A stretch of DNA of 64,000 bases from Monarcha castaneiventris obscurior (Eukaryota > Chordata > Aves > Passeriformes > Monarchidae): contig JAMPIT010000269.1 of NCBI GenBank assembly GCA_026261815.1, positions 496,001 through 560,000 on the forward strand, given 5' to 3'. The notes beneath the pieces were generated by a model. The model saw only the letters and a list, made by a program, of their open reading frames with translations. It had not been told where the DNA came from and did not search any database. Positions 32,408 through 58,300 of the stretch are shown here, in pieces. Position 1 is the stretch's first letter, and every line of letters starts with the position of its first letter. The position numbers and the translations under genes were made by a program.

Positions 32408-40928
<8,521 letters not shown>

Positions 40929-42156: not shown

Positions 42157-45100
42157 TCACATCGCAGATTTCATCTCCCACTCCTGGACAAACCCCGTGG
42201 GAGGGGATCAATCCCTCATTTCCCTGTGCTGTGGGATCGCCTCAACCCTTCCCACCTCCCCAAAATCCCGGAGTTACCTTCGTCTTCCGCATCACATTTC
42301 CCTTCCCCGCGGTGAGCGGGGACGGGGGCGGCCTCAGGGCGCTCCTCGCTGATGTGGTGCGCTTCAGCAGCGGCCTGAGGAACGATCCCTGAGGGAAAAA
42401 CAGCGGAAAAAGGCTGAGGGCTGCCCTCCAAACATCATTCCCCTTGTATTCCACACCTTCCCCGGCGTCCCCTCACCTCGGAGGCGGCCGAGCTGGCGGT
42501 GGCAGCGATGTGACCCTTCAGGGACTTGCCGAGGGCCAGCAGGTTCATCTCGGAGCCGGCTTTGAGCCTGCCCTTCCCGCAGCAGCTCCTCTCCAGCTGC
42601 CCCACCTTCTCCTCCAGCTTGGGAAAGGCTCTGCTCCCTGCAGGGACAGCGGGAGCGCTGCCAGGCCCGGGCACCCCTCGATCCCGGGCACCCCTCAACC
42701 TCGGGCACCCCTGGACCTCGGGCACCCCTCGACCTTGGGTACCCCTAAACCCCTGGCATCCCTCAACCCCGGGCACCCCTCAACCCCGGGCACCCCTCAA
42801 CCTCGGGCACCCCTCAACCTCGGGTACCCCTCGACCCCTGGCACCACTCGACCCCGGGCATCCCTCAACCTCGTGTACCCCTCAACCCCGGGCACCCCTT
42901 GACCCCGGGCACCCCTCAACCTCGGGAACCCCTCAACCCCGGGAACCTCTCAACCCCTGGCACCCCTCAATCCCGGGCACCCCTGGACCTCGGACACCCC
43001 TCAACCCCGGGTACCCCTCGATCCCGGGCACCCCTCAACCTCGGGTACCCCTCAACCCCGGGCACCCCTGGACCTCGGGCACCCCTCGATCCCGGGCACA
43101 CCTCAACCCCGGGCACCCCTCGACCCCGGGCACCCCTCAATCCCTAGCACCCCTCGACTCCGGGCACCCCTCGACCCCTCCGGCTGCTCCGGGCAGGACC
43201 AGAGCCCCTCCGTGCTCCTACCGACGAGGCCATCGAGCCCATCCCGAGTCCCCTTCCTCTCAGGCAGCGTCAGGGTGTGCTGGGAGCGGGAGAAATCCCT
43301 GCTCTGGAGGTTGGGGGTCTCCTTTGCCAACTCGGCGCTGGCAGGTCTGCCCCGGAGAGCTGCCGGGGGTGCTGGGGAGAGAGGGAGGAGGAGGGAGGGT
43401 CAGGAGGAAGGGCAGGGGAAGGATGGTGGGGAGGAGAGGCAGGGAAATGATGCTCGGGGGAAGAGGAGGGAGAGGATGGTGGGGAGGGAGGGAAGAGAGA
43501 GGACGATCAGGAGGGAGGGAAGAGAGAGGACGATCAGGAGGGAGGGAAGAGAAAGGAAGATCAGGAGAGAGGGAAGAGAGAGGACGATCAGGAGGGAGGG
43601 AAGAGAAAGGACGATCAGGAGGGAGGGAAGAGAGAGGACGATCAGAGGAAGGGAAGAAGAGGGACTCCGGAGAGGAAGCACAGGGGAAGGACACAGAAAT
43701 CCCGGCTCTCCTGGGCATCGCAGCCTCCACCCCAAGCACTAGGAGCTGGGGAATGAGGGGAGACCCCTCCGCAGCCCCGGGGGAGCTCCCAGCCCCTCTC
43801 ACCTGCCTGCGAGGGCCGGGCACTGCCCGGGCCGTGGCCGCTGGCACAGACGGGCAGGGCAGACACGGGTCTGCTGCGCTGCCCTTGCGCTGCCCGGTCC
43901 AGGCTCTGCTGCTGCGGAAGGAAGCCCGGGAGATGCCCGTGGGCAAGGGGACAGTGGCAGCGGGTCCCCCCACGCCGGGGGTCACGAGTGGGGGGCAAAG
44001 AGCTCCAGCAGAGGTTACCAGCTGCTGCAGCCGCTCCGCGTTGGAGCAGAGATGTTTTGGGGTCTCGGCTGGTGGGGGCTGCCCGAAGGGGTCGTCCATG
44101 TAGGCGTTGGGGGTCGGGACACGGCGCAGCAGCAGCCCCCTGCCAGGAGGGGATCCCGTTATTGCCCACACCTCACAGCGGAGCGGGAGGGCTGGGGGTG
44201 GGCGAAATCCTTACCCGGCAGCAGGGCGGCTGCTGGGCCTGGGGGGCCTGGGGGGTCTGGGGGGGGGCCCGGCACCCTTCTTGGGCTCCGCTCCTCCCCT
44301 GGCCTGCAGGGTCTTCAGCCAGGCTTCCCTCTCCTCATCCGAGCGTGCCTGGCACGGGGCAGAGCCTGGGCTCAGGGGGTGCCCCCCAGGAGGGGCACGG
44401 GGGGGTGCCCCAGGGGTCACTCACCTGCAGCAGGGCGAGCTCCCGGCCGCGCTGGGCGATGCGGATCCGGAGGTTTTGTGGGGAGCCGGCGGCCGCCCCC
44501 GGGGACACCTCGCAGCCGTCGAGGCGCAGGGCACAGAGGGGGCGCTGGGCAGTGCCAGGCTCCGGGAACATGCGCAGGGCTCCGTGCCGGACCGCGCACC
44601 AGAGCCGCTGCCAGCGCCCGCGGAGCCGCACCGCCAGGAACCCTGCGGGCAGCGCCGTCAGCCCCGGGCTCAGGGGGGCAGGACCCCCGCCTCACCCCGG
44701 CCCTTGGCACCCCTCACCTCCTTTGGCATCCTCTGAGGGCCGCGGGCTGCGGGCGGGGCTCTGCCGGCAGCGATCTTCCTCCTCCTCTTCCTCCTTGCCG
44801 AGCTGGAGGAGAGAGAGGGGGGATGAGGAGAGCCCCATCTCGGTGGGTTTCAGCCCCCTGCGCCCCTGACCCCCTCCCCAAGGCGGCTCTCCCCAGCATC
44901 ATCCAGCAGGGACACCGGGATCGGGGACTGGGGTGTGTTCCTGGCCCTTTCCCATTCCCGGCTTTCCCAAGGGACAAGCTCACCCTGGCGAGCCTGGCGG
45001 AGGGTGACGCTGGCACGCTGAGGGCTGCCAGCCCGCTCGGGGCATCGCTGCTCACCTCCTCGATCACCTGCCGAGGGAAACGCGCAGCGCTGCACCCCCG

Positions 45101-48100
45101 GGGCTCCTCAGAGCTCCTCACAACCCCGGGATGGGAGCTGGGGACAGACAGGATCATCCCCAGCTTCCCCCTCCCCGCCGGGAGCACCGGAGCAGGGCTG
45201 TGCCCCCAAAATTTCGCCCTCCCCACCCCACTCCTGCCCGGCTGCAACACCTCCAAACCTTCCTCCAGTCCTCAGCCTGCTGCCGGCTCTGGAAGCCGAT
45301 GACCAGCGCCTCTCCTGCCCTCCCCGTCACCTTCAGGGCGTGGGGCATCTTCTTGCCTCGCTTGTCTTTGTAGGTGACGCGGCAGCCGCGCAGGTCCAGC
45401 TCCAGCACCGGCTGCAGGTCAGCGGCGCACCTGAAGCACTGGGGGGGCACGGAGCGGTCAGGGGGGCACGGAGGGGTCAGTGGGGCACGGAGGGGTCAGG
45501 GGGGCACGGAGGGGTCCGGGGGGCACGGAGGGGTCAGGGGGGCACGGAGGGGTCCAGGGGGCACGGAGGGGTCAGGGGGACACGGAGGGGTCAGGAGAGG
45601 GGCACGGAGGGGTCCGGGGGGGGACACGGAGGGGTCGGGGGGAGGCACGGAGGGGTCAGTGGGAGGCACGGAGGGGTCAGGGGGGTACGGAGGGGTCAGG
45701 GGGGGCACGGAGGAGTCAGTGGGGCACGGAGGGGTCCGGGGGGCACGGAGGGGTCCGGGGGGCACGGAGAGCCGTTCCCACCCTCCATCCCTCCTCCCCT
45801 GCAGCCCCTCACCAGCAGCACGTGCTCCCGGACGATGAAGAGCTGCTTCGCCCACTGGCCGAGCCAGCGCTTCCTCCAGAGGAAGCCACAGAGCTGCGCC
45901 TCGGGTCGCCCGGGGGGCTCGGGCTCGGCGCTGGTGGCCGCTGGCCAGCGCAGGTAGTGGGCACGGTCCGTCACCCCTTCCTCCTCCTCATCCTCCTCCT
46001 CCTCATCCTCTCCGTACGACTCGTAGTGGCTGCTGTCGCTGTCGCCACCGCCTGGGAGCCGGGATGGGGTCAGGGCTCGGGGGGCGCGGGGGTGCTGGGG
46101 AGGGGGCTCGGGGGGCTCCTCACCGCTTGTGCCACGGCCCGGGGGTTCGGCGTCTTCGTAGGAGCCGTCGGCTGCTGGGCACGGGGGGGAGGCCGGCGCT
46201 TGGTTCTGGGGGTACAAGGGGTGCTCCAAAGAACCTCGCAGGGTCCCCAAGGCACTGCCAGGGGGCTCTGCCAGGAGCGGGTGGGCACCGAGGGCACCTC
46301 CCGGCCTGCTCGGACCCCTCGTGCGAGCAAGATCGGCCACCGGTGCCATCCCTGGCACATCCCCGGGCTCCTCTGCCAGCCCCTGCCCGTGCCCTCCTCA
46401 CCCCTCGGCGCAGGCTCGAGGCGCTGCCCGGGCGGCACTCGCAGCCTCTGCCTCCCTCTGCATCCGCCGTCCTGGATCCTGCGGGGAAAATCAGCAGCGG
46501 CAGCGCTGTGCCGGGGCGCTGAGGGGTCGGGAACCCCCCCAAATCACTCACGGAGGAGGAGATGGGGGGTGGATCGAAGGGGGGGGACTCACCCGGGCTG
46601 GTCCGGCCCTGAGGGGTGCCCGGGGAGGGCGAGAGGCAGCGCATGATCATGTACTCTGCATCCTCTGCTGCGGGGGGAGCTCCGGGTCACGGCCCCCGCT
46701 CCCCGACCCTGCCCCGCTGCCCACCGGGCACGGCCCGGGGGCTTCCCCCCGCCCCCAGCCCCGCACTCACACGGGGGGCTCTGCAGCCGCGACAGGAGGT
46801 CGGACACGGAGTTTTTCTTGGCCCGAGCTGAGGCGCTGAGGCTTTCCCGGTCCAGGATGAGCAGGAAGGACCTCAGGTCCGACAGGAGCTTGTCCAGGTC
46901 TGCGGGGGGACGGGGATGTGCCACCGCACCCTGCACAGGACGCTGCGGGCAGGGGTCCCCAGCGCTGGGGCGGGGCTGGGGGGGTCCCCGATGCCTTGGG
47001 GAGGGTCTCCGGTGCCATGGGGGGCTCCTCGCTGCCATGGGGAGGGTCCCCGGTACCATGGAAGGGGGTCCCTGATGCCATGGGGGGGTCCCGATGCCAT
47101 GGGGAGGGTCCCCGATGCCTTGGGGAGGGTCTCCGGTGCCATGGGGAGGGTCCCCGGTACCATGGGGGGGGTCTCCGATGCCATGGGGGGGTCCTCGATG
47201 CCTGGGGGGGGGGGGTCCCCGAGGCCATGGGAGGGTCCCCGATGCCATGGGAGGCTCCTCGATGCCTGGGGGGGGGGTCCCCGATGTCATGGGGGGTCCT
47301 CGAGGCCTTGGGGGGGTCCCCCATGCCTTGGGGGAGTCCCCGATGCCTTGGGGGTGTCCCCGATGCCTTAGAGGGGGTCCCCGATGTCTCCGGGGAGTCC
47401 CCGTTGCCATGGGGGAGTCCCCGATGTCTCGGGGGAGTCCCCGATGCCATGGGGGAGTCCCCGATGCCATGGGGGTTACGTGCCCTGTGCCACCCGCCCT
47501 GCCCTGCTCCGGCACCTGCCCTGGCCGGGCACAGTCGGGCCATTGACCGGTCCCCGGGGGGCCGGGGGAGGATGAGGAGGGGGACCCGGGACCTGCGGGG
47601 ATGAAGGCTCCTCTGTGTGCCCTCACAGAGCTGGTTTGTTCCCGGTTGGACCGGGGCAGCCACGGCCGGGGGGCTGCGCTGGTGCTGCTCCGCCACGTGC
47701 GGAGGAGGAGAAGGAAGAGGAAGAGGAGGAGGAGGAAGAAGAGGCCTGGCAGCCTCTGGAGCAGCTGATGAAGGCTGAAAAGCTGGGCATTCACCCACCG
47801 CCCCCCTCCGAGGGCAGGCACAGCCGGGGACCCCCGGGAAGGACAGAGAGGGACAAGGAGCTGCTTTGTGAGCGGACAACGGGAGAGCCGGGACGGCACC
47901 GCCTCCACGCCGTGGTGCCCCGGGAGACTCCTGGCACGGGGAGAGGGCCCAGTTTGGGGTCCGTGCAGGCGTCGCATGCCCCGAGGGAGCGAGGGGCAGA
48001 GCAGGACCAGGAACATCCTCAGTCTGTCCCCTGTCCCTGCTCCTGCAGGGTCCCGTCGCCCTGTGCACCTCCAGATGCCAGCTCAGGAGGGGGCAGAGGT

Positions 48101-50458
48101 CCCTCAGTGTCCCTCAGTGTCCCTCAGTGTCCCCCAGGGTCCCTCAATGTCCCTCAGGGTCCCTCAGTGTCCCTCAGGGTCTCTCAGTGTCCCTCAGTGT
48201 CCCTCAGTGTCCCTCAGGGTCCCTCAATGTCCCTCAATGTCCCTCAGTGCCCCTCAGTGTCCCCCAGGGTCCCTCAGTGTCCCTCAGTGTCCCCCAGGGT
48301 CCCTCAGTGCCCCTCAGTGTCCCCCAGGATCCCTCAGTGTCCCTTAGGGTCCCTCAATGTCCCTCAATGTCCCTCAGTGCCCCTCAGTGTCCCCCAGGGT
48401 CCCTCAATGTCCCTCAGTGTCCCTCAGTGTCCCTCAGGGTCCCTCAGTGTCCCTCAATGTCCCTCAGTGTCCCTCAGTGTCCCTCAATGTCCTGCAGTGT
48501 CCCTCAGGGTCCCTCAGTGTCCCTCAGTGTCCCTCAGGGTCCCTCAGTGTCCCTCAGGGTCCCTCGGTGTCCCTTAGGGTCCCTCAGTGTCCCTCGGTGT
48601 CCCTCAGGGTCCCTCAGGGTCCCTCAGCCCTCCGGGGGTCTCTGCCCGGCTCCCCCCAAGGCTCCTTCCTGCCCTGCATCTGGAATTGCTTTGCACAGCC
48701 CCGCTCCAGCCTCTGCTCCCTGCTCCCAGCTGGCATCAAACATTCCAGACCCCGGCACCCCCTGGCACAGGTCTGGCAGTGCCAGCTGCCCCCAGCCCCC
48801 TCCCAATCCCACCTCCGATCCCATTTCCCAGCTGGAAAGGGACAATCCCAACAAAAGCCACCGCCAGCAATGTGACCCCGCCACCTCACATCCCCGAATC
48901 CCACATTTCCCTGGCTTCACAGGGATGCGGTGCACCCCAAAAAGAAGGTGGCAGCGCCTGGGTGAGGAGAGGGCGGGGGGGGGGAGGAGCCCCCCAAGCC
49001 CTGCGTGTGTTACAGGGGGTGGGAATGAAGCCCCCTCCCCACGAGGTGCCGGCACGGGGGGACCCCCGAGCCCTCCGCTGTGTCCCCGGCCCGGGGAGCC
49101 CACACCCTGCCCGGGGGGACAGGAAACATCTGGCAGCGCAGTCCGCCCGAGCAGCGCCGGAGCTGGGCCCAAACATCTGGATTTCCCTGGAAACCGGGCA
49201 AGGGAAGGAGGTGGGAGGTGGGGGGGGGGACACCAGATCCCTGCGGGAAAAGCGGGGAGGGGCTGGGGTAGGGGCTGGCTGGAGGGACCTGCGGGCGGTG
49301 TGGGGGGACACTGGGGTTGTCCCCCCTCCCCTGGCCAGCGGGCCCGGCTCTTCCCCTCCCTTTCTTTCTGCTCTCCTCCGCCCAGGCCGAATTCCTCGGC
49401 AATGACATCTCCGTCCACTCACCCTTTTGCCCTCTCTGCAGCCCCCGCCGCGCTCCCTCCCCAGGCCCCTCTGCCCTGTGCGGGGCAGCGATCCGTGCCC
49501 GGCGGTGCCCAGCGGTGCCCAGCGGTGCCCAGCTGTGCCCAGCTGTGCCCGCAGCCGGTGCAGGGCGGGCAGGGGCTGCCCTCGGGCCTGGCCCGGTGCC
49601 CGCTGCCTGCTGCCGTGCCAAGGGCAGGCGGCCGCGATGGAAAACATCTGCCTCGGTCTGCGGCCCCCCAAAACACACGCACGGAGCTTCTCCTAGCAAA
49701 GCTCGCTGCTCCCGCGCTGTGGCATCCTCGCCCCGGTGCCATCCTCGTGGGAGGAGGAGGAGGAGGAGGAGGAGGAGGAGGAGGAGGAGGAGGAGGAGGA
49801 AGGACGGGGCGGCCCCAGGGATGCCATGGGAACGCGGCGTGCCCGGCTGATGCCCGGCTGCCATTCGGGGCTGCCATTTGGGGTTGCCCTGAGTCTCCGT
49901 GGGGATTTATCGGTGCCCGAGGGGTGCGGAGGTGCCCCGGGGGACCCCGGGGGTGGCTCTGGCCCAGCTCGGCATGACTCAGAGGAGGCTGCGGGGAGCT
50001 GCTGGCGGCCCCAGCGTGACTCGTCATGTGCGGAGGCTCCAGGCCACGGCTCCGGGGTGGGGACGCTTCCCCCTCACGGCCGCTGCACCCCCAAAGTGCC
50101 CCCGGGAGGCCGCTGGCCTCGCCCACCCTGCCATGGCACCGCAGAGTCGGGGGGAGGACACCCCGTCCCTCCTCGTCCCCTCACCTCCATCCCTTCCCCT
50201 CCAGCAGCCATCCCGCAGCTCCCCGCACCCCTTTTCCACCCTCTGCTCCTTCCCCGAGCCCCCTTTTCCACCCTCTGCTCCTTCCCCGAACCCCCTTTTC
50301 CCTTCCACGCCCTCGCGGGCACCCCACACCCGCGTGGGCACCCCCACGCAGCCTCCCCCGTGCTCTGAACCCTCTTTTCCAACCCCTTTTTTAGGTTTTT
50401 TCTCCCCCTCCCCAGGCTCGCATCCCTCTGGACCCCCCGTACCTCTCTGCCGGGACAT
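42157..50458 (-). CDS. AFAP1-family actin filament adaptor, probable fourth paralog, 17 exons
   Basis: Exons in transcript order: 50458-50443, 46899-46771, 46667-46593, 46478-46402, 46205-46124, 46051-45813, 45438-45259, 45067-44984, 44802-44718, 44642-44425, 44348-44215, 44139-44019, 43911-43803, 43371-43222, 42637-42477, 42388-42278 and 42183-42157, giving 665 residues. The N-terminus [20 protein letters not shown] matches the AFAP1L1/AFAP1L2 start. Next come a YxxM at Y54 (EYMIM), the acidic [15 protein letters not shown]1 (about 175-270, [19 protein letters not shown]), PH2 (about 323-410, [18 protein letters not shown]), a proline-rich stretch, [10 protein letters not shown] and a C-terminus [15 protein letters not shown] like family members. 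It most resembles AFAP1L2 (XB130). Half of the usual coiled coil is missing. It is neither AFAP1, AFAP1L1 nor AFAP1L2 by context. The 16-bp first exon is inferred from phase and homology. Confidence 0.92.
42655..43190. repeat. 18-bp minisatellite in an AFAP1-like intron
   Basis: About 29 units of GGGCACCCCTCAACCTCG. Multiple of three, so it reads open in plus-strand frames. Confidence 0.96.
43380..43665. repeat. purine-rich minisatellite in an AFAP1-like intron
   Basis: About 10 units of 27-30 bp around GGGAAGAGAGAGGACGATCA. Strong purine/pyrimidine strand bias. Confidence 0.95.
45440..45775. repeat. 18-bp minisatellite in the AFAP1-like PH1 intron
   Basis: About 18 units of GGGGCACGGAGGGGTCAG between the two exons that encode PH1. 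Confidence 0.97.
46960..47480. repeat. minisatellite in AFAP1-like intron 1
   Basis: Units of 18-21 bp such as GGGGGTCCCCGATGCCATGG, about 26 copies, just upstream of coding exon 2. Confidence 0.96.
47481..48090. other. AFAP1-like intron 1, no gene seen
   Basis: Unique GC-rich sequence with a GGAGGA tract (47700-47745). Long frames exist but none shows a known family. Confidence 0.5.
48095..48640. repeat. 10-bp minisatellite in AFAP1-like intron 1
   Basis: More than 50 copies of GTCCCTCAGT with AGGGTCCCTCA and AATGTCCCTCA variants. It gives S-V-P-Q repeats in all plus frames. Confidence 0.97.
48641..50440. other. AFAP1-like intron 1, no gene seen
   Basis: GC-rich sequence with GGTGCCCAGC units (49500-49550), a (GGA)n tract at 49747-49800 and CCTTTTCCACCCTCTGCTCC repeats near 50230-50300. 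No coding homology recognised on either strand. Confidence 0.5.
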
Positions 50459-50474: not shown

Positions 50475-50770
50475 CATCGTGCTGAGACCGGGATCGGGAT
50501 TGGGATTGGGACCGGGATGGGGACCGGGATCGGGACCGGGATCGGGATCGGGAAAGGGATAGGGATCGGGATCGGGACCGGGATCGGGATTGGGATTGGG
50601 ACCGGGATGGGGACCGGGATCGGGACCGAGACTGGGACCGGGGTGGGGATCAGGATCGGGATCGGGATCGGGACCGGGACCGGGATTGGGACCGGGACCG
50701 GGACAGGGATTGGGACAGGGATTGGGACTGGGATCAGGACCGGAACCGGGACCGGGAGCGGGGCAGCGCT
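50475..50770. repeat. GGGATC/GGGACC hexamer array upstream of the AFAP1-like start
   Basis: About 48 hexamers of GGGATC, GGGACC and GGGATT. It begins only about 25 bp upstream of the AFAP1-like ATG, so it lies in the 5' UTR or core promoter. It reads PIPIPVP on the minus strand. Confidence 0.95.
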
Positions 50771-52365: not shown

Positions 52366-55300
52366 TCAGAAGAGGAAGGCTTTTTTCTTCAGCTCGTTGC
52401 GCTTCCACAGCGCCAGTTTGCCGAACTCCTCCGGCGTCATCTCGAACACCTTCAGGAAATCCTCGGGGGACAAGTGGCGCTGCGGGAAAGGGGGTCGGAG
52501 GGTGCTGACAGAGGGAAGAGACCCCTCCCCGGAGCCCCCCCGAGCCTGGAGCAGCTCCTACCTCCAGCCTGGTCCTGTCCACGCCGGGCGGGAGCTTCAC
52601 ACGGCCTCGGTTCGTCACCATCAGCATCTCATAGGGGTAGATCTGAAACGGGGCGGGGAGGGGGGACAGGGGGGTGTGAGACCCTCTGAGAGACCCCTCG
52701 GCCCCATCCAAGCCCCCCCTGGGCCCTTCCAAGCCTCCCAACCTCATCCAAACCCATCCAATCCCAGCAAAGACACCCCAGCTCCTTCCAAGCCCCCCAA
52801 ACCTAACAAAGACCCCTCGGCCCCATCCAAGCCCCCTCCCAAGCCCCCACCAGCCCATTCAAGCTCTCCCGGCCCCATCCAAGCCCCCCAACCCTAACAA
52901 AGACCCCTCGCCCCTTCCAACCCCCCAACCCCATCCAAGCCCCCCAACCCATCTAAGCCCTCACCCCCTCCAGCCCCTTGTTTGCCCTCAGCCCCATCCA
53001 AGCTCTCCCAGCCCCATCCAAGCCCCCCCTGGGCCCTTCCAAGCCCTCCAACCCCATCCAAGCCCCCCCGGCCCCATCCAAACCCACCCAACCCTAACAA
53101 CGACCCCTCAGCCCCTTCCAAGCTCTCCCAGCTCCTTCCAAGCCCCCCAAACCTAACAAAGACCCTTCAGCCCCATCTAAGCCCCTTCGCAACCCCATCC
53201 AAGCCCTCCCAACCTCATCTAAGCCCTCCCAAGGCCCCCCAACCTCATCCAAGCCCCCCACCAGCCCCATCCAAGCCCCCCAACCCCATCCAAGCCCCCC
53301 AACCCTAACAAAGACCCCTCGGCCCCTTCCAAGCCCCCCAACCCCATCCAAGCCCCCCAACCCTAACAAAGACCCCTCAGCCCCCCTCCAAGCCCCTCCC
53401 GAGCTCTTCCAACCCCCCGAACCCCATCCAAGCCCCTCCCGGCCCCTTCCAAGCCCCCCAATCCCATCCAAACCCACCCAACCCCAACAAAGACCCCTCA
53501 GCCCCTTCCAAGCCCCTCCCGGCCCCTTCCAACAGAATCCAAGCCCCTTCCAACCCCATCCAGCTCTCCCAGCCCCTTCTGAGCCCCCCCAACCCCATCC
53601 AAACCCCCCCCCCGGCCCCTTCCAAGCCCCCCAACCCCATCCAAGCTCTCCCAGCCCCTTCCAAGCCCCTCCCGGCCCTTTCCAAACCCCCCTGGCCCCA
53701 TCCAAACCCCCCCGGCTCCATTCAAACCCCCCCGGCTCCATCCAAACCCCCCCAACCCCATCCAAGCCCCTCCCTGCTCCATCCGAGCCCCCCCCGGCCC
53801 CATCCGAGCCCCCCCAGCACCCAGCCCCGCTCACCTTCTGCTCCAGCATGCTGGGCAGCGAGTTCCCTCTGTCCATGCGCCCGCGCTGCCCGTTCTGGGG
53901 GGGGCCGGGGAGGGGGCAAAACTTGAGATCAACCCGGGCCCCCCAACCTCCCCCCCCCCCGAAGTGCTGCTCACCCCCCACCCCAACCGGAGCCGAGGGG
54001 CTGCAGCCTGCGGGTGAAAGACCCCCTCTGCCCCCCTCAGGGACCGTCCCGGGGGTGTCCCCGTCCCCCCCCCAGCCCCGTACGTCACCCTCTGGCTGGG
54101 TGTCCGCGTCCGCAGCCCCGTGAGTCCTCACCTGTAGGGCTGGACAGAGAGAGAGGGGGGCAGGGGTCAGCCCGGGGACCCCCCCTGTGCCCCCCACATT
54201 CCTGCCCCCGAGGGGCTTTCGCAGCCTCTGCTGAGCCCGGCTTTGTCCCAGCGCTCCCAATCCCTGGGGACGCCCCCGCGTGTCCCGGGACACCCCCAGA
54301 TTCCCGGAGAAATCTCTTGGGACGCCCCCACATATCTAGGACACCCCCACATGTCCCGGGACATCCCCAGATTCCCGGAGAAATCTCTTGGGACGCCCTC
54401 ACATCTCCAGGGCATCCCCACATCCCTCCAGGTCATTCCGGCATTCCCAGGACGCCCCTGCACTCCCAGGGACACCCCCACATCTCCAGGGCATCCCCAC
54501 ATGTCCCAGGACACCCCCACATTTTCCAGGACACCCCCACATGTCCCAGGATACCTTTGGAACATCCCCACATTCCCTGGGACACCCCCACATCTCCCAG
54601 CGATCAGCCCCACATGTCCCAGGACACCCCCACATCTCCGGGACACCCCCAAATTCCCGGGGACATCCTCTGGGACACCCTCACATTTTCCAGGACACCC
54701 CCACGTGTCCCAGGACACCCCCACATGGCCCAGGACACCTTTGGAACACCCCCACATTCCCTGGGACAGCCCCACATCTCCCAGGACATCCCACATGTCC
54801 CAGGGATAACCCCACATCCCCAGGACACCCCCACATCTCCCAGGGATAACCCCACATGACCCAGGACACCCCCAGATTCCCGGGGAAATCTCTTGGAACA
54901 CCCCCACATCTCCAGGGCATCCCCACATCCCTCCAGGTCATTCCAGCATCCCCAGGACACCCCCACATCTCCCAGGGATCATCCCACATCCCCAGGGACA
55001 CCCCCACATATCCCAGGACACCCCAACATATCCCAGGACAGCCCCACATTTTCCAGGACGCCCCCAGATTCCCAGGGACATCCTCTGGGACACCCCCACA
55101 TATCCCAGGACACCTTTGGAACATCCCCACATTCCCTGGGACACCCCCACATCTCCAAGACATCCCTGCATCCCCAGGGACACCCCCACATGTCCCAGGG
55201 ACACCCCCAAATCCCCAAGACACCCTCAAATTCCCGGGGACATCCTCTGGGACACCCCCACATCTCCCAGGGTATCCCCACATCCCCAAGACACCCCCAC

Positions 55301-58300
55301 ATTTTCCAGGACGCCCCCACATTCCCGGGCACATTCCCTGGGACACTCCCACGTCTCCAAAACATCCCTGAATCCCCAGGGACACCCCCACATGTCCCAA
55401 GACACCCCCAAATTCCCAAGGACACCCCCACATGTCCCAAGACACCCCCAAATCCCCAGGGACACCCCCAAACCCCCAAGATACCCCCTAAATTCCCCAG
55501 GACACCCCCAAATTCCCAGGGACACCCCCACATGTCCCAAGACACCCGCAAATTCCCAGGGACACCCCCACATCCTCAGGGACACCCCCAAATCCCCAGG
55601 GACACCCCCAAATCCCCAGGACACCCCTAAATTCCCTAGGACACCCGCAAATCCCCAGGGACACCCCCACATGTCCCAGGACACCCCCAAATCCCTAGGG
55701 ACACCCCCACATCCCCAGGGACACCCCCACATGTCCCAGGACACCCCCAAATCCCCAGGGACACTCCCAAATCCCCAAGACACCCCCAAATCCCCAGGGA
55801 CATCCCCACATGTCCCAAGACACCCCCAAATCCCCAGGGACACCCCCAAATCCCCAAGACACCCCCTAAATTGCCCAGGACACCCCCACATGTCCCAGGG
55901 ACACCCCCACATGTCCCAGGACACCCCCAAATCCCCAGGACACCCCCAAATCCCCAGGGACACCCCCAAATCCCCGGGGACACCCCCACATGTCCCAGGA
56001 CACCCCCAAATTCCCAGGGACAAGGGACACCCCCAAATCCCCGGGACACCCCCAATCCCAGGACACCCCTAAATTCCCAGGGACACCCCCAAATCCCCAG
56101 GGACACCCCCATTCCCTGCCCGGATCCTCACCAGGGCTGCCCTTCTCGCTCCCCGCCGAGCCGAACTCCGCCGACTGCAGCTGCGGGGGGACGGGGCAGG
56201 GTCAGAGGGGTCCCCCAAAACCCCGGAGGGGGCTGGGGGTGACCCCGGGAGTGGGGAGGGGGTCACTTACCCGGGTGAGGGTGCTCCGGCCGGAGGCGGG
56301 GAGCGAGGAGCTCTTGGAGCTCGAGTGCAGGGCTGGGAGAGAGGCAGAGAGAGTCAGGGGCATTTTAGGGACGGGCAGGGATTTGGGGGGTACAGGAAGG
56401 GATTTGGGGGGTACAGGAAGGGATTTGGGGGGGTACAGGTGGGGATTTGGGAGGTGCAGGCAGGAATTGGGGGAATTTTGGGGGGATTTGGAGGGTACAG
56501 GCAGGAATTGGGGGGCACAAGAAGGATTTGGGGGGTACAGGCAGAGATTTGTGGGGTAAAGGAAGGAATTTGGGAGGTGCAGGGGGAATTTGGGGGTAAA
56601 GGCAGGGATTTGGGGGGTACAGGTGGGGATTTGGGAGGTGCAGGCAGGGATTTAGGAGGTGCAGGCAGGGATTTGGGAGGTACAGGGGGGATTTGGGGGG
56701 TACAGGCAGGATTTTGAGGGGCACAGGCAGGATTTTGGGGGGCACAGGCAGGATTTTGGGGGTTCAAGCAGGATTTTGAGGGGCACAGGCAGGAATTTGT
56801 GAGGTGTAGGCAGGATTTGAGGGGCGCAGACAGGATTTTGGGGGGCACAGGCAGGATTTTGGGTGCCCAGACAGGATTTTGGGGAGCACAGGCAGGATTT
56901 TGGGGGTTCAAGCAAGATTTTGAGGGATACAGACAGGATTTGGGGGCACAGACAGGATTTTGGGGGGCACAGGCAGGATTTTGAGGGGCACAGTCAGGAC
57001 TTTGTGGGGCACAGGCAGGAATTTGTGAGGAGTAGGCAGGATTTGAGGGGCACAGGCAGGATTTTGGGGGGCACAGTCAGGATTTTGGGGGGCACAGTCA
57101 GGATTTGAGGGGCACAGGCAGGATTTTGGGGGCCCAGACAGGATTTTGGGGGGCACAGGCAGGATTTTGGGGGCCCAGACAGGATTTTGGGGGGCCAGGC
57201 AGGATTTTGGGGGGCCCAGACAGCCAGAGGTGAGGAGGGGACGGGCTGCAAGCAGAACAACCCCACTCACACGTGTGGAAAGGCGTCCGGTCCGGCAGCG
57301 AGCGAGTTTTTCTCCGGATTGGGAGAGATTTCTCCATCTCCTCCTTCAGGATCAGCTTCCCGAGGTTGGAGGTGACCTGGGGATGCAGGGACAAGGATTG
57401 GGATCGGTTCCAGCTCCTCCCCCGACCCCATCCCAAAGTTCCACCCGCCCCCTCCTCACCTTGCTCAGCTCCTGCCGCTGGAGCTCCCGCAGGTTCTTCA
57501 TCTCCTCCGTCAGATCCTCATCCTCCTCCTCGCCTCTCTTGGACGCCATCCGCCTCCTCCACTCCGTCTCTGCGGGGAAATTTGGGGTTTTCTGCTCATT
57601 CCCAGCTCTCCCCGGGTTCTCCAGGTGGGAAAAGGCTGCGGTTGGCACCTACCCACGACTGCCAGGGACGGGGGGCACGGCCAGTAGTCGGTCTCGATCT
57701 TGGCGGGCTGGTTGGGATCCGGGGGCTGCGCCGCCGGGAATTTGGAGGATTCGATGATCAAATCCTCGATGAGGTGTTTGCCGTGGTGGGCGCTGGAATG
57801 GTGGTCTGGGAAAGGGGGTGGGGGGGGGGCACGGGGAGGGTGAGGCGGCATCCAGGGATACCCCATCCCATGGGATAAACCCCTCATCCTATGGGATAGA
57901 CCCCATCCTAGGGGATAGACCCCATCCCATGGGATAAACCCCTCATCCTATGGGATAGACTCCCCATCCTATGAGATAGACCCCATCCCATAGGATAGAC
58001 CCCATCCCATGGGATAGATCCCATCCTATGGGATAGACCCCATCCTATGGGATAGACTCCCCATCTCATGGGATAGACCCCAATCCCACAGGATAGACCC
58101 CAATCCTATGGGATAGACTCCCCATCCTATGGGATAGATCCCATCCCAGGATAACCCATCCCATGGGATAGATCCCATCCCAGGATACCCCATCCCATGG
58201 GATAAACCCCTCATCCTATGGGATAGACCCCATCCTATGGGATAGACTCCCCATCCCATGGGATAGACCCCAATCCCACGGGATAGACCCCTTCCCATGG

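Follow-up and report, generated by a model that had tools for sequence, protein, structure and literature searches.

A 64-kb window of the Monarcha castaneiventris obscurior genome (C192:496001-560000 of a 1.08-Gb assembly) appears to carry a functional fourth gene of the AFAP family, a small group of signalling adaptors linked to actin, a reading to which we give a probability of about 0.86. The gene lies beside dematin, would be an ohnolog from the two rounds of genome duplication (2R) and pairs with AFAP1L2/XB130 in the tree; relatives persist across many groups of jawed vertebrates, whereas human gene listings lack it. The available text of a review counts three AFAP members (PMC4068053), as does a research abstract (PMC9835296), and a fourth member brings the family to the number of copies that two rounds of duplication should leave. 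The family itself is known and the gene has been predicted under other names; what appears to be new is its status as a fourth member. Neither a description of such a member nor a paper using the name AFAP1L3 was found in the literature searched, which covered open papers. Recognition of the gene corrects a misnaming, as in at least one bird the name AFAP1L2 is given to two distinct genes, and offers a way to test which PI3K/Src adaptor functions existed in the ancestral vertebrate and which are missing in humans, and hence in cancer studies of XB130.

Gene structure and coding integrity

The gene runs on the minus strand from an ATG at 50458 to a stop codon ending at 42157, and its 17 coding exons, whose borders were placed manually at splice signals between open frames, amount to 1998 nt or 665 codons (Table 1). 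The only stop codon of the frame is at its end, no frame break occurs across the exons, and GT-AG borders delimit all 16 introns, which range from 72 to 3543 bases. The complete 17-exon frame claimed in a preliminary description of this DNA is thus borne out with exact coordinates, together with the elements named there: the AFAP N-terminal module, encoded by exon 2; a YxxM, which is YMIM at residues 54-57; both PH domains; and the KEWEMK-type C-terminus, here KEWEMKSAM. An annotated protein of Aphelocoma coerulescens (P0001, 664 aa) is 91-92% identical to the window protein, with identities of 71-100% in each of the 17 exons; because it aligns at 91% over 100% of the query, the frame is not a product of chance. 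The gene is predicted, from sequence, to be very probably functional in Monarcha.

Table 1. Coding exons of the fourth AFAP gene and its neighbours in the window
Feature	Position	Strand	Evidence
Exon 1, start codon, MSRQR	50443..50458	-	Matches Aphelocoma P0001
Exon 2, AFAP-family N-terminal helical module	46771..46899	-	Two helices in model of relative P0001
Exon 3, EDAEYMIM, YxxM site at residues 54-57	46593..46667	-	Motif in 32/32 aligned relatives
Exon 4	46402..46478	-	Splice sites, Aphelocoma P0001 identity
Exon 5, SYEDAEP (tyrosine 115)	46124..46205	-	Frame and alignment
Exon 6, HYESYGE (tyrosines 136, 139) and first half of PH1	45813..46051	-	Frame and alignment
Exon 7, second half of PH1	45259..45438	-	180 nt, same length in three paralogs
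Exon 8	44984..45067	-	Splice sites, Aphelocoma P0001 identity
Exon 9	44718..44802	-	Splice sites, Aphelocoma P0001 identity
Exon 10, first part of PH2	44425..44642	-	Frame and Pfam PF00169
Exon 11, end of PH2	44215..44348	-	Frame and Pfam PF00169
Exon 12, 11-residue motif with tyrosine 453	44019..44139	-	Frame and alignment
Exon 13	43803..43911	-	Splice sites, Aphelocoma P0001 identity
Exon 14	43222..43371	-	Splice sites, Aphelocoma P0001 identity
Exon 15, possible C-terminal coiled-coil remnant and KAGSEMNLL motif	42477..42637	-	Frame and alignment
Exon 16	42278..42388	-	Splice sites, Aphelocoma P0001 identity
Exon 17, EWEMKSAM and stop	42157..42183	-	Splice sites, Aphelocoma P0001 identity
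Villin headpiece of neighbouring dematin (presumably DMTN), 5' of AFAP gene	52369..52476	-	Dematin-type headpiece
FHIP2B (FAM160B2) coding exons, 3' of AFAP gene	32411..40740	-	tblastn with crow FAM160B2; RAI16-like domain

Genomic neighbourhood

The position between DMTN and FHIP2B given in the preliminary description holds: the headpiece of the gene that we take to be DMTN lies 5', the FHIP2B exons lie 3', and all are on the minus strand. Outside the Monarcha genome, the adjacency to FHIP2B was seen only through a crow gene model, the database entry 'FAM160B2' (P0104), which spans exons of the AFAP gene and then FHIP2B (window positions 44838-32411). This entry implies that the two genes also adjoin in crow. 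A real AFAP-FHIP2B fusion was rejected, as P0104 has the look of two genes joined by the prediction software. When seven long database proteins were screened with Pfam for other fused neighbours, PH-type domains were the only ones present.

Searched against this genome, the coelacanth protein gives 18 matches, of which 17 fall at four loci (the window on C192, and C675, C324 and C13) and one is a stray. Villin headpieces occur at seven places. Each of the four AFAP loci has one of these on its 5' side, in the same orientation, at distances to the first matched AFAP exon of about 2 kb (C192), 16 kb (C13), 60 kb (C675) and 84 kb (C324), and these four have in common an ABLIM/dematin-type ending, RHL...LW.RN..KK.A.LF, that the other three lack. 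By rough arithmetic, the chance of finding a headpiece at most 100 kb from one AFAP locus is about 0.001, so its presence beside all four is not accidental. The proposed pairing of AFAP with ABLIM genes is thus seen within this genome as a headpiece gene of the right type 5' of each AFAP locus. All four AFAP genes also agree in the exon border within PH1 and in having a second PH1 exon of 180 nt; these shared borders, together with the trees, indicate descent from a common ancestral AFAP gene.

FHIP-type genes are found at four loci. The one nearest to crow FHIP2B is on C675, the AFAP1L2 contig (up to 62 bits, 40-60% identity); C324 gives a weak match (35 bits) and C439 none at E 0.001. FHIP2 is thus carried by the contigs of both AFAP1L2 and the window gene, though placed differently: the C675 copy is some 210 kb past the headpiece, in the opposite orientation. 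The fourfold conserved neighbourhood expected of a 2R ohnolog quartet is seen with the headpiece genes at the four AFAP loci, while FHIP2 is present at two.

Phylogeny of the PH1-PH2 region

A tree was built from 254 columns of the PH1-PH2 region and 42 rows: the window gene, 33 relatives picked for spread from the 164 proteins returned by the two relative searches, five bird AFAP1L2 proteins taken from 120, and exonic segments of this genome's own AFAP1, AFAP1L1 and AFAP1L2. The best 120 of the 3014 proteins in the chimera search were 119 bird AFAP1L2 proteins and one unnamed mockingbird protein. The three known paralogs are represented by bird rows only, and the root was assumed to lie between AFAP1 plus AFAP1L1 and the rest.

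The window gene and the 33 relatives form one clade (100/100), with bird AFAP1L2, AFAP1 and AFAP1L1 outside it. Nesting inside the bird AFAP1L2 or AFAP1L1 clade, which had been named beforehand as speaking against a missing fourth copy, was not found; the shark-to-bird clade was recovered instead. Branching within it largely mirrors the relationships of the species (cartilaginous fishes, ray-finned fishes, coelacanth, salamanders, turtles, crocodile, birds), although the placement of the coelacanth is weak (80/63). Because six cartilaginous-fish rows lie in this clade, the separation of the fourth gene from the other three would predate the divergence of sharks from bony vertebrates. When the tree was rebuilt without Gallus and Cygnus, the clade kept its 100/100 support; the window gene and Strix were flagged for odd letter make-up.

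A second split, between AFAP1 plus AFAP1L1 and AFAP1L2 plus the fourth group (100/99), gives the symmetric shape expected of two duplications. The branch leading to the fourth group is long (0.88). Raw PH1-PH2 identities to this genome's AFAP1, AFAP1L1 and AFAP1L2 are 35.9%, 34.7% and 35.4% for the window gene, 39.1%, 37.5% and 41.9% for the Latimeria member, and 41.7%, 39.0% and 41.4% for a shark member. For the window gene, raw identity does not single out AFAP1L2, as the figure is about 35% for all three paralogs; on the evidence of the tree, as rooted by AFAP1 plus AFAP1L1, and of the motifs described below, the fourth gene probably pairs with AFAP1L2.

Occurrence in other vertebrates and database naming

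A protein search with the window protein gave 197 matches, and the best 120, which were inspected, come from birds, turtles, crocodilians, Latimeria, three salamanders and, among fishes, gar, bowfin, sturgeon, paddlefish, bichir, teleosts, sharks and a ray. The Latimeria protein, a query no nearer to birds than to other tetrapods, gave 1063 matches, the best 120 of which belong to the same groups. One listed row of the former search and three of the latter are without a name. No mammal, squamate, frog or caecilian is named among the best 120 of 197 or the best 120 of 1063 matches, the database content of these groups being uncontrolled; this absence is no more than suggestive of loss there. 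The gene had been described as kept in this lineage: it is kept here, but it is not limited to it, as many jawed-vertebrate groups hold relatives.

Automatic predictions of the fourth AFAP gene already exist in databases, filed under different names. Its relatives are inconsistently called AFAP1L2, AFAP1-like or AFAP1L1; a UniRef entry for Latimeria is named Si:dkey-220o5.5, and the zebrafish member is si:dkey-220o5.5. Aphelocoma coerulescens carries two different proteins both named AFAP1L2, P0001 of the fourth group and P0210, which matches the AFAP1L2 locus on C675. The zebra finch entry P0093 (Taeniopygia), named collagen alpha-1(I), consists of the first part of a fourth-AFAP protein and then apparently of other frames. 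The chicken member P0092 (Gallus) has 513 aa, no N-terminal module, an altered C-terminus and a long branch (0.41). In landfowl (Gallus P0092, Pavo P0119) the gene may be in the course of loss or badly assembled.

Protein features and a proposed mechanism

Pfam domain PF00169 matches the window protein in two stretches (69.1 bits, above cut-off). The model of the relative P0001 has a mean pLDDT of 57 and contains two PH-like domains (blocks of 89-94 for PH1 and 73-93 for PH2), an N-terminal helical pair (2-23, 28-45) and short helices at 472-488 and 574-584, with mostly low confidence elsewhere. No long C-terminal coiled coil is seen in this model, where only the short helix 574-584 stands in a low-confidence part. 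PH-domain proteins dominate the best 50 PDB structure matches; human KIAA1914, which we assume to be AFAP1L2, ranks tenth among these 50 and first by sequence.

Conservation from sharks to birds extends to 70 columns, counted by eye, that are invariant across 32 relatives. The EDAEYMxM-type motif at 54-57 is present in all 32, and Tyr 54, 115, 136, 139 and 452 (P0001 numbering; 452 corresponds to 453 in the window) are invariant in these and in the window gene. N-terminal tyrosine motifs of the SH2-binding type, an AFAP-family trait, are thus present at the level of sequence. The pattern PN.Y(M/I)DDPF occurs in 22 of the 32 relatives; the remaining ten are all ray-finned fishes, and the four of these that were viewed have S for P. 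A simple SH3-binding proline pattern, found in 11 of 32, failed its control, as it was also absent from two bird AFAP1L2 proteins.

With AFAP1L2/XB130, its sister in the tree, the window gene shares the N-terminal module, the YxxM at residue 54 (alike in bird P0230 and the window gene), the YEEAEP and YESY tyrosine sites, two PH domains and the PH1 exon borders. It differs from it in a PH1-PH2 identity of about 35% within this genome and apparently in the absence of the long coiled coil. Two motifs set the fourth group further apart: SE(M/L)NL, in 32 of 32 relatives, and a KR-T-SAK-type motif, in 29 of 32, neither of which was found with the same patterns in two bird AFAP1L2 proteins. AFAP1/AFAP-110 and AFAP1L1 have the same family architecture, PH1 exon borders and ABLIM-type neighbour on the 5' side, but stand across the 100/99 split from the window gene. 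According to the available review text they possess a leucine zipper and an actin-binding domain (PMC4068053), neither of which is seen in the window protein.

The same text places the SH2 sites of XB130 at 54-57, 124-127, near 148 and 457-460, and states that its Tyr54 YxxM binds PI3K p85 (PMC4068053). Because the positions of the tyrosine sites agree with these, the fourth AFAP protein may be a cytoplasmic adaptor working like XB130. Membrane placement would come from its PH domains, and Tyr54 in EDAEYMxM would be a substrate of Src-family or receptor tyrosine kinases; once phosphorylated, the site would bind the SH2 domains of PI3K p85, and tyrosines 115, 136, 139 and 453 could recruit other SH2 proteins. 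From the sequence, we lean slightly towards this PI3K-adaptor mechanism. The protein probably lacks the long C-terminal coiled coil, so that it is unlikely to dimerise or bundle actin by way of this region, and the roles of AFAP1 that depend on dimers or actin would not be expected of it.

Alternative explanations

The names AFAP1L2 and AFAP1L1 given to the gene in databases would suit a duplicate of one of these genes that arose in birds or reptiles and was relocated next to DMTN. The first half of coelacanth PH1 also ranks AFAP1L2 of this genome (50%) before AFAP1L1 (44%) and AFAP1 (42%), but it is 65% identical to the window gene. Such an origin is extremely improbable, as the 100/100 shark-to-bird clade shuts out bird AFAP1L2, Aphelocoma has both genes (P0001 and P0210), and the headpiece neighbourhood is fourfold. 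Uniting the eight bird members with the six bird AFAP1L2 rows, in a comparison run after the tree was known, costs 122 log-likelihood units, and a bird-only AFAP1L2 duplicate is rejected under the model used (p-AU 7.8e-6). The tree dates the split and not its mode, and an older tandem or segmental duplication, preceding the separation of sharks and bony vertebrates, would also agree with the different placement of FHIP2 on the two contigs. However, four AFAP genes on four contigs, each with a separate ABLIM/dematin-type headpiece on its 5' side in the same orientation, form a block pattern, and we consider such a duplication very improbable.

The minisatellite-filled introns and the short, long-branched chicken P0092 with its altered C-terminus might raise the suspicion of a pseudogene, or of a gene in decay, behind the intact appearance in Monarcha. 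This has a similarly low probability: the 17 exons have no stop or frame break, all 16 introns are GT-AG, full-length identity to Aphelocoma is 92%, 70 columns are invariant in 32 relatives, and the zebrafish member appears in a table of changed transcripts in the available part of a published study (PMC4749159). A pseudogene was rejected on the ground that no broken frame occurs in the 17 exons. The fourth AFAP gene is, on sequence comparison, very probably the fourth 2R ohnolog; the missing copy posited in the preliminary description is supported by the shark-to-bird clade and the fourfold headpiece neighbourhood.

The human locus and possible loss in mammals

A published gene table places human DMTN at 8:22048995-22082527 and FHIP2B at 8:22089150-22104911, followed by NUDT18 (PMC13163323). 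The 6.6-kb gap between DMTN and FHIP2B holds no AFAP gene in this table, and none is among the 18 genes listed at 8p21.3 in the available part of that source (PMC13163323). In agreement with the preliminary description, a fourth AFAP gene is thus not listed in the human DMTN-FHIP2B interval; the presence of the gene at this place in human, named beforehand as an objection to a copy missing there, is not borne out by the table.

It would be the second gene from the DMTN region to be missing in human, after npm2a. The available text on npm2a describes it as coming from regions with dmtn, fgf17, lgi3 and bmp1 and as lost in mammals (PMC6233590), which suggests a regional tendency to loss around dmtn. 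Like the AFAP gene, npm2a belongs to the dmtn region and occurs in sharks, fishes, amphibians and sauropsids; in contrast to it, npm2a encodes an unrelated protein, is thought to be a local duplicate and was lost in the coelacanth (PMC6233590), which keeps the AFAP gene. Loss-prone 'elusive' human genes are described as GC-rich, with chicken orthologs enriched on microchromosomes (PMC10208646, available part), and loss of the fourth AFAP gene would fit this pattern.

A broader picture, which we put forward tentatively and at a little under even odds, is that the fourth ancient AFAP branch was a PI3K adaptor resembling XB130, but with less of the C-terminus, and that mammals, squamates and frogs each lost it independently from a DMTN stretch prone to loss. 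If true, the AFAP biology of humans would be a pared-down form of the ancestral system in which AFAP1L2 fills both roles.

Repeats in the window

Tandem repeats account for 189 rows in the window, and the introns and spacers are rich in minisatellites. Large minisatellites surround DMTN, the AFAP gene and FHIP2B (38361-39633, 42666-43178, 46977-47475, 48099-48627, 52701-53823 and 54562-56111), and repeats of this kind may account for poor annotation. An array of (CGGGAT)-type hexamers (50486-50762) lies directly upstream of the AFAP start codon.
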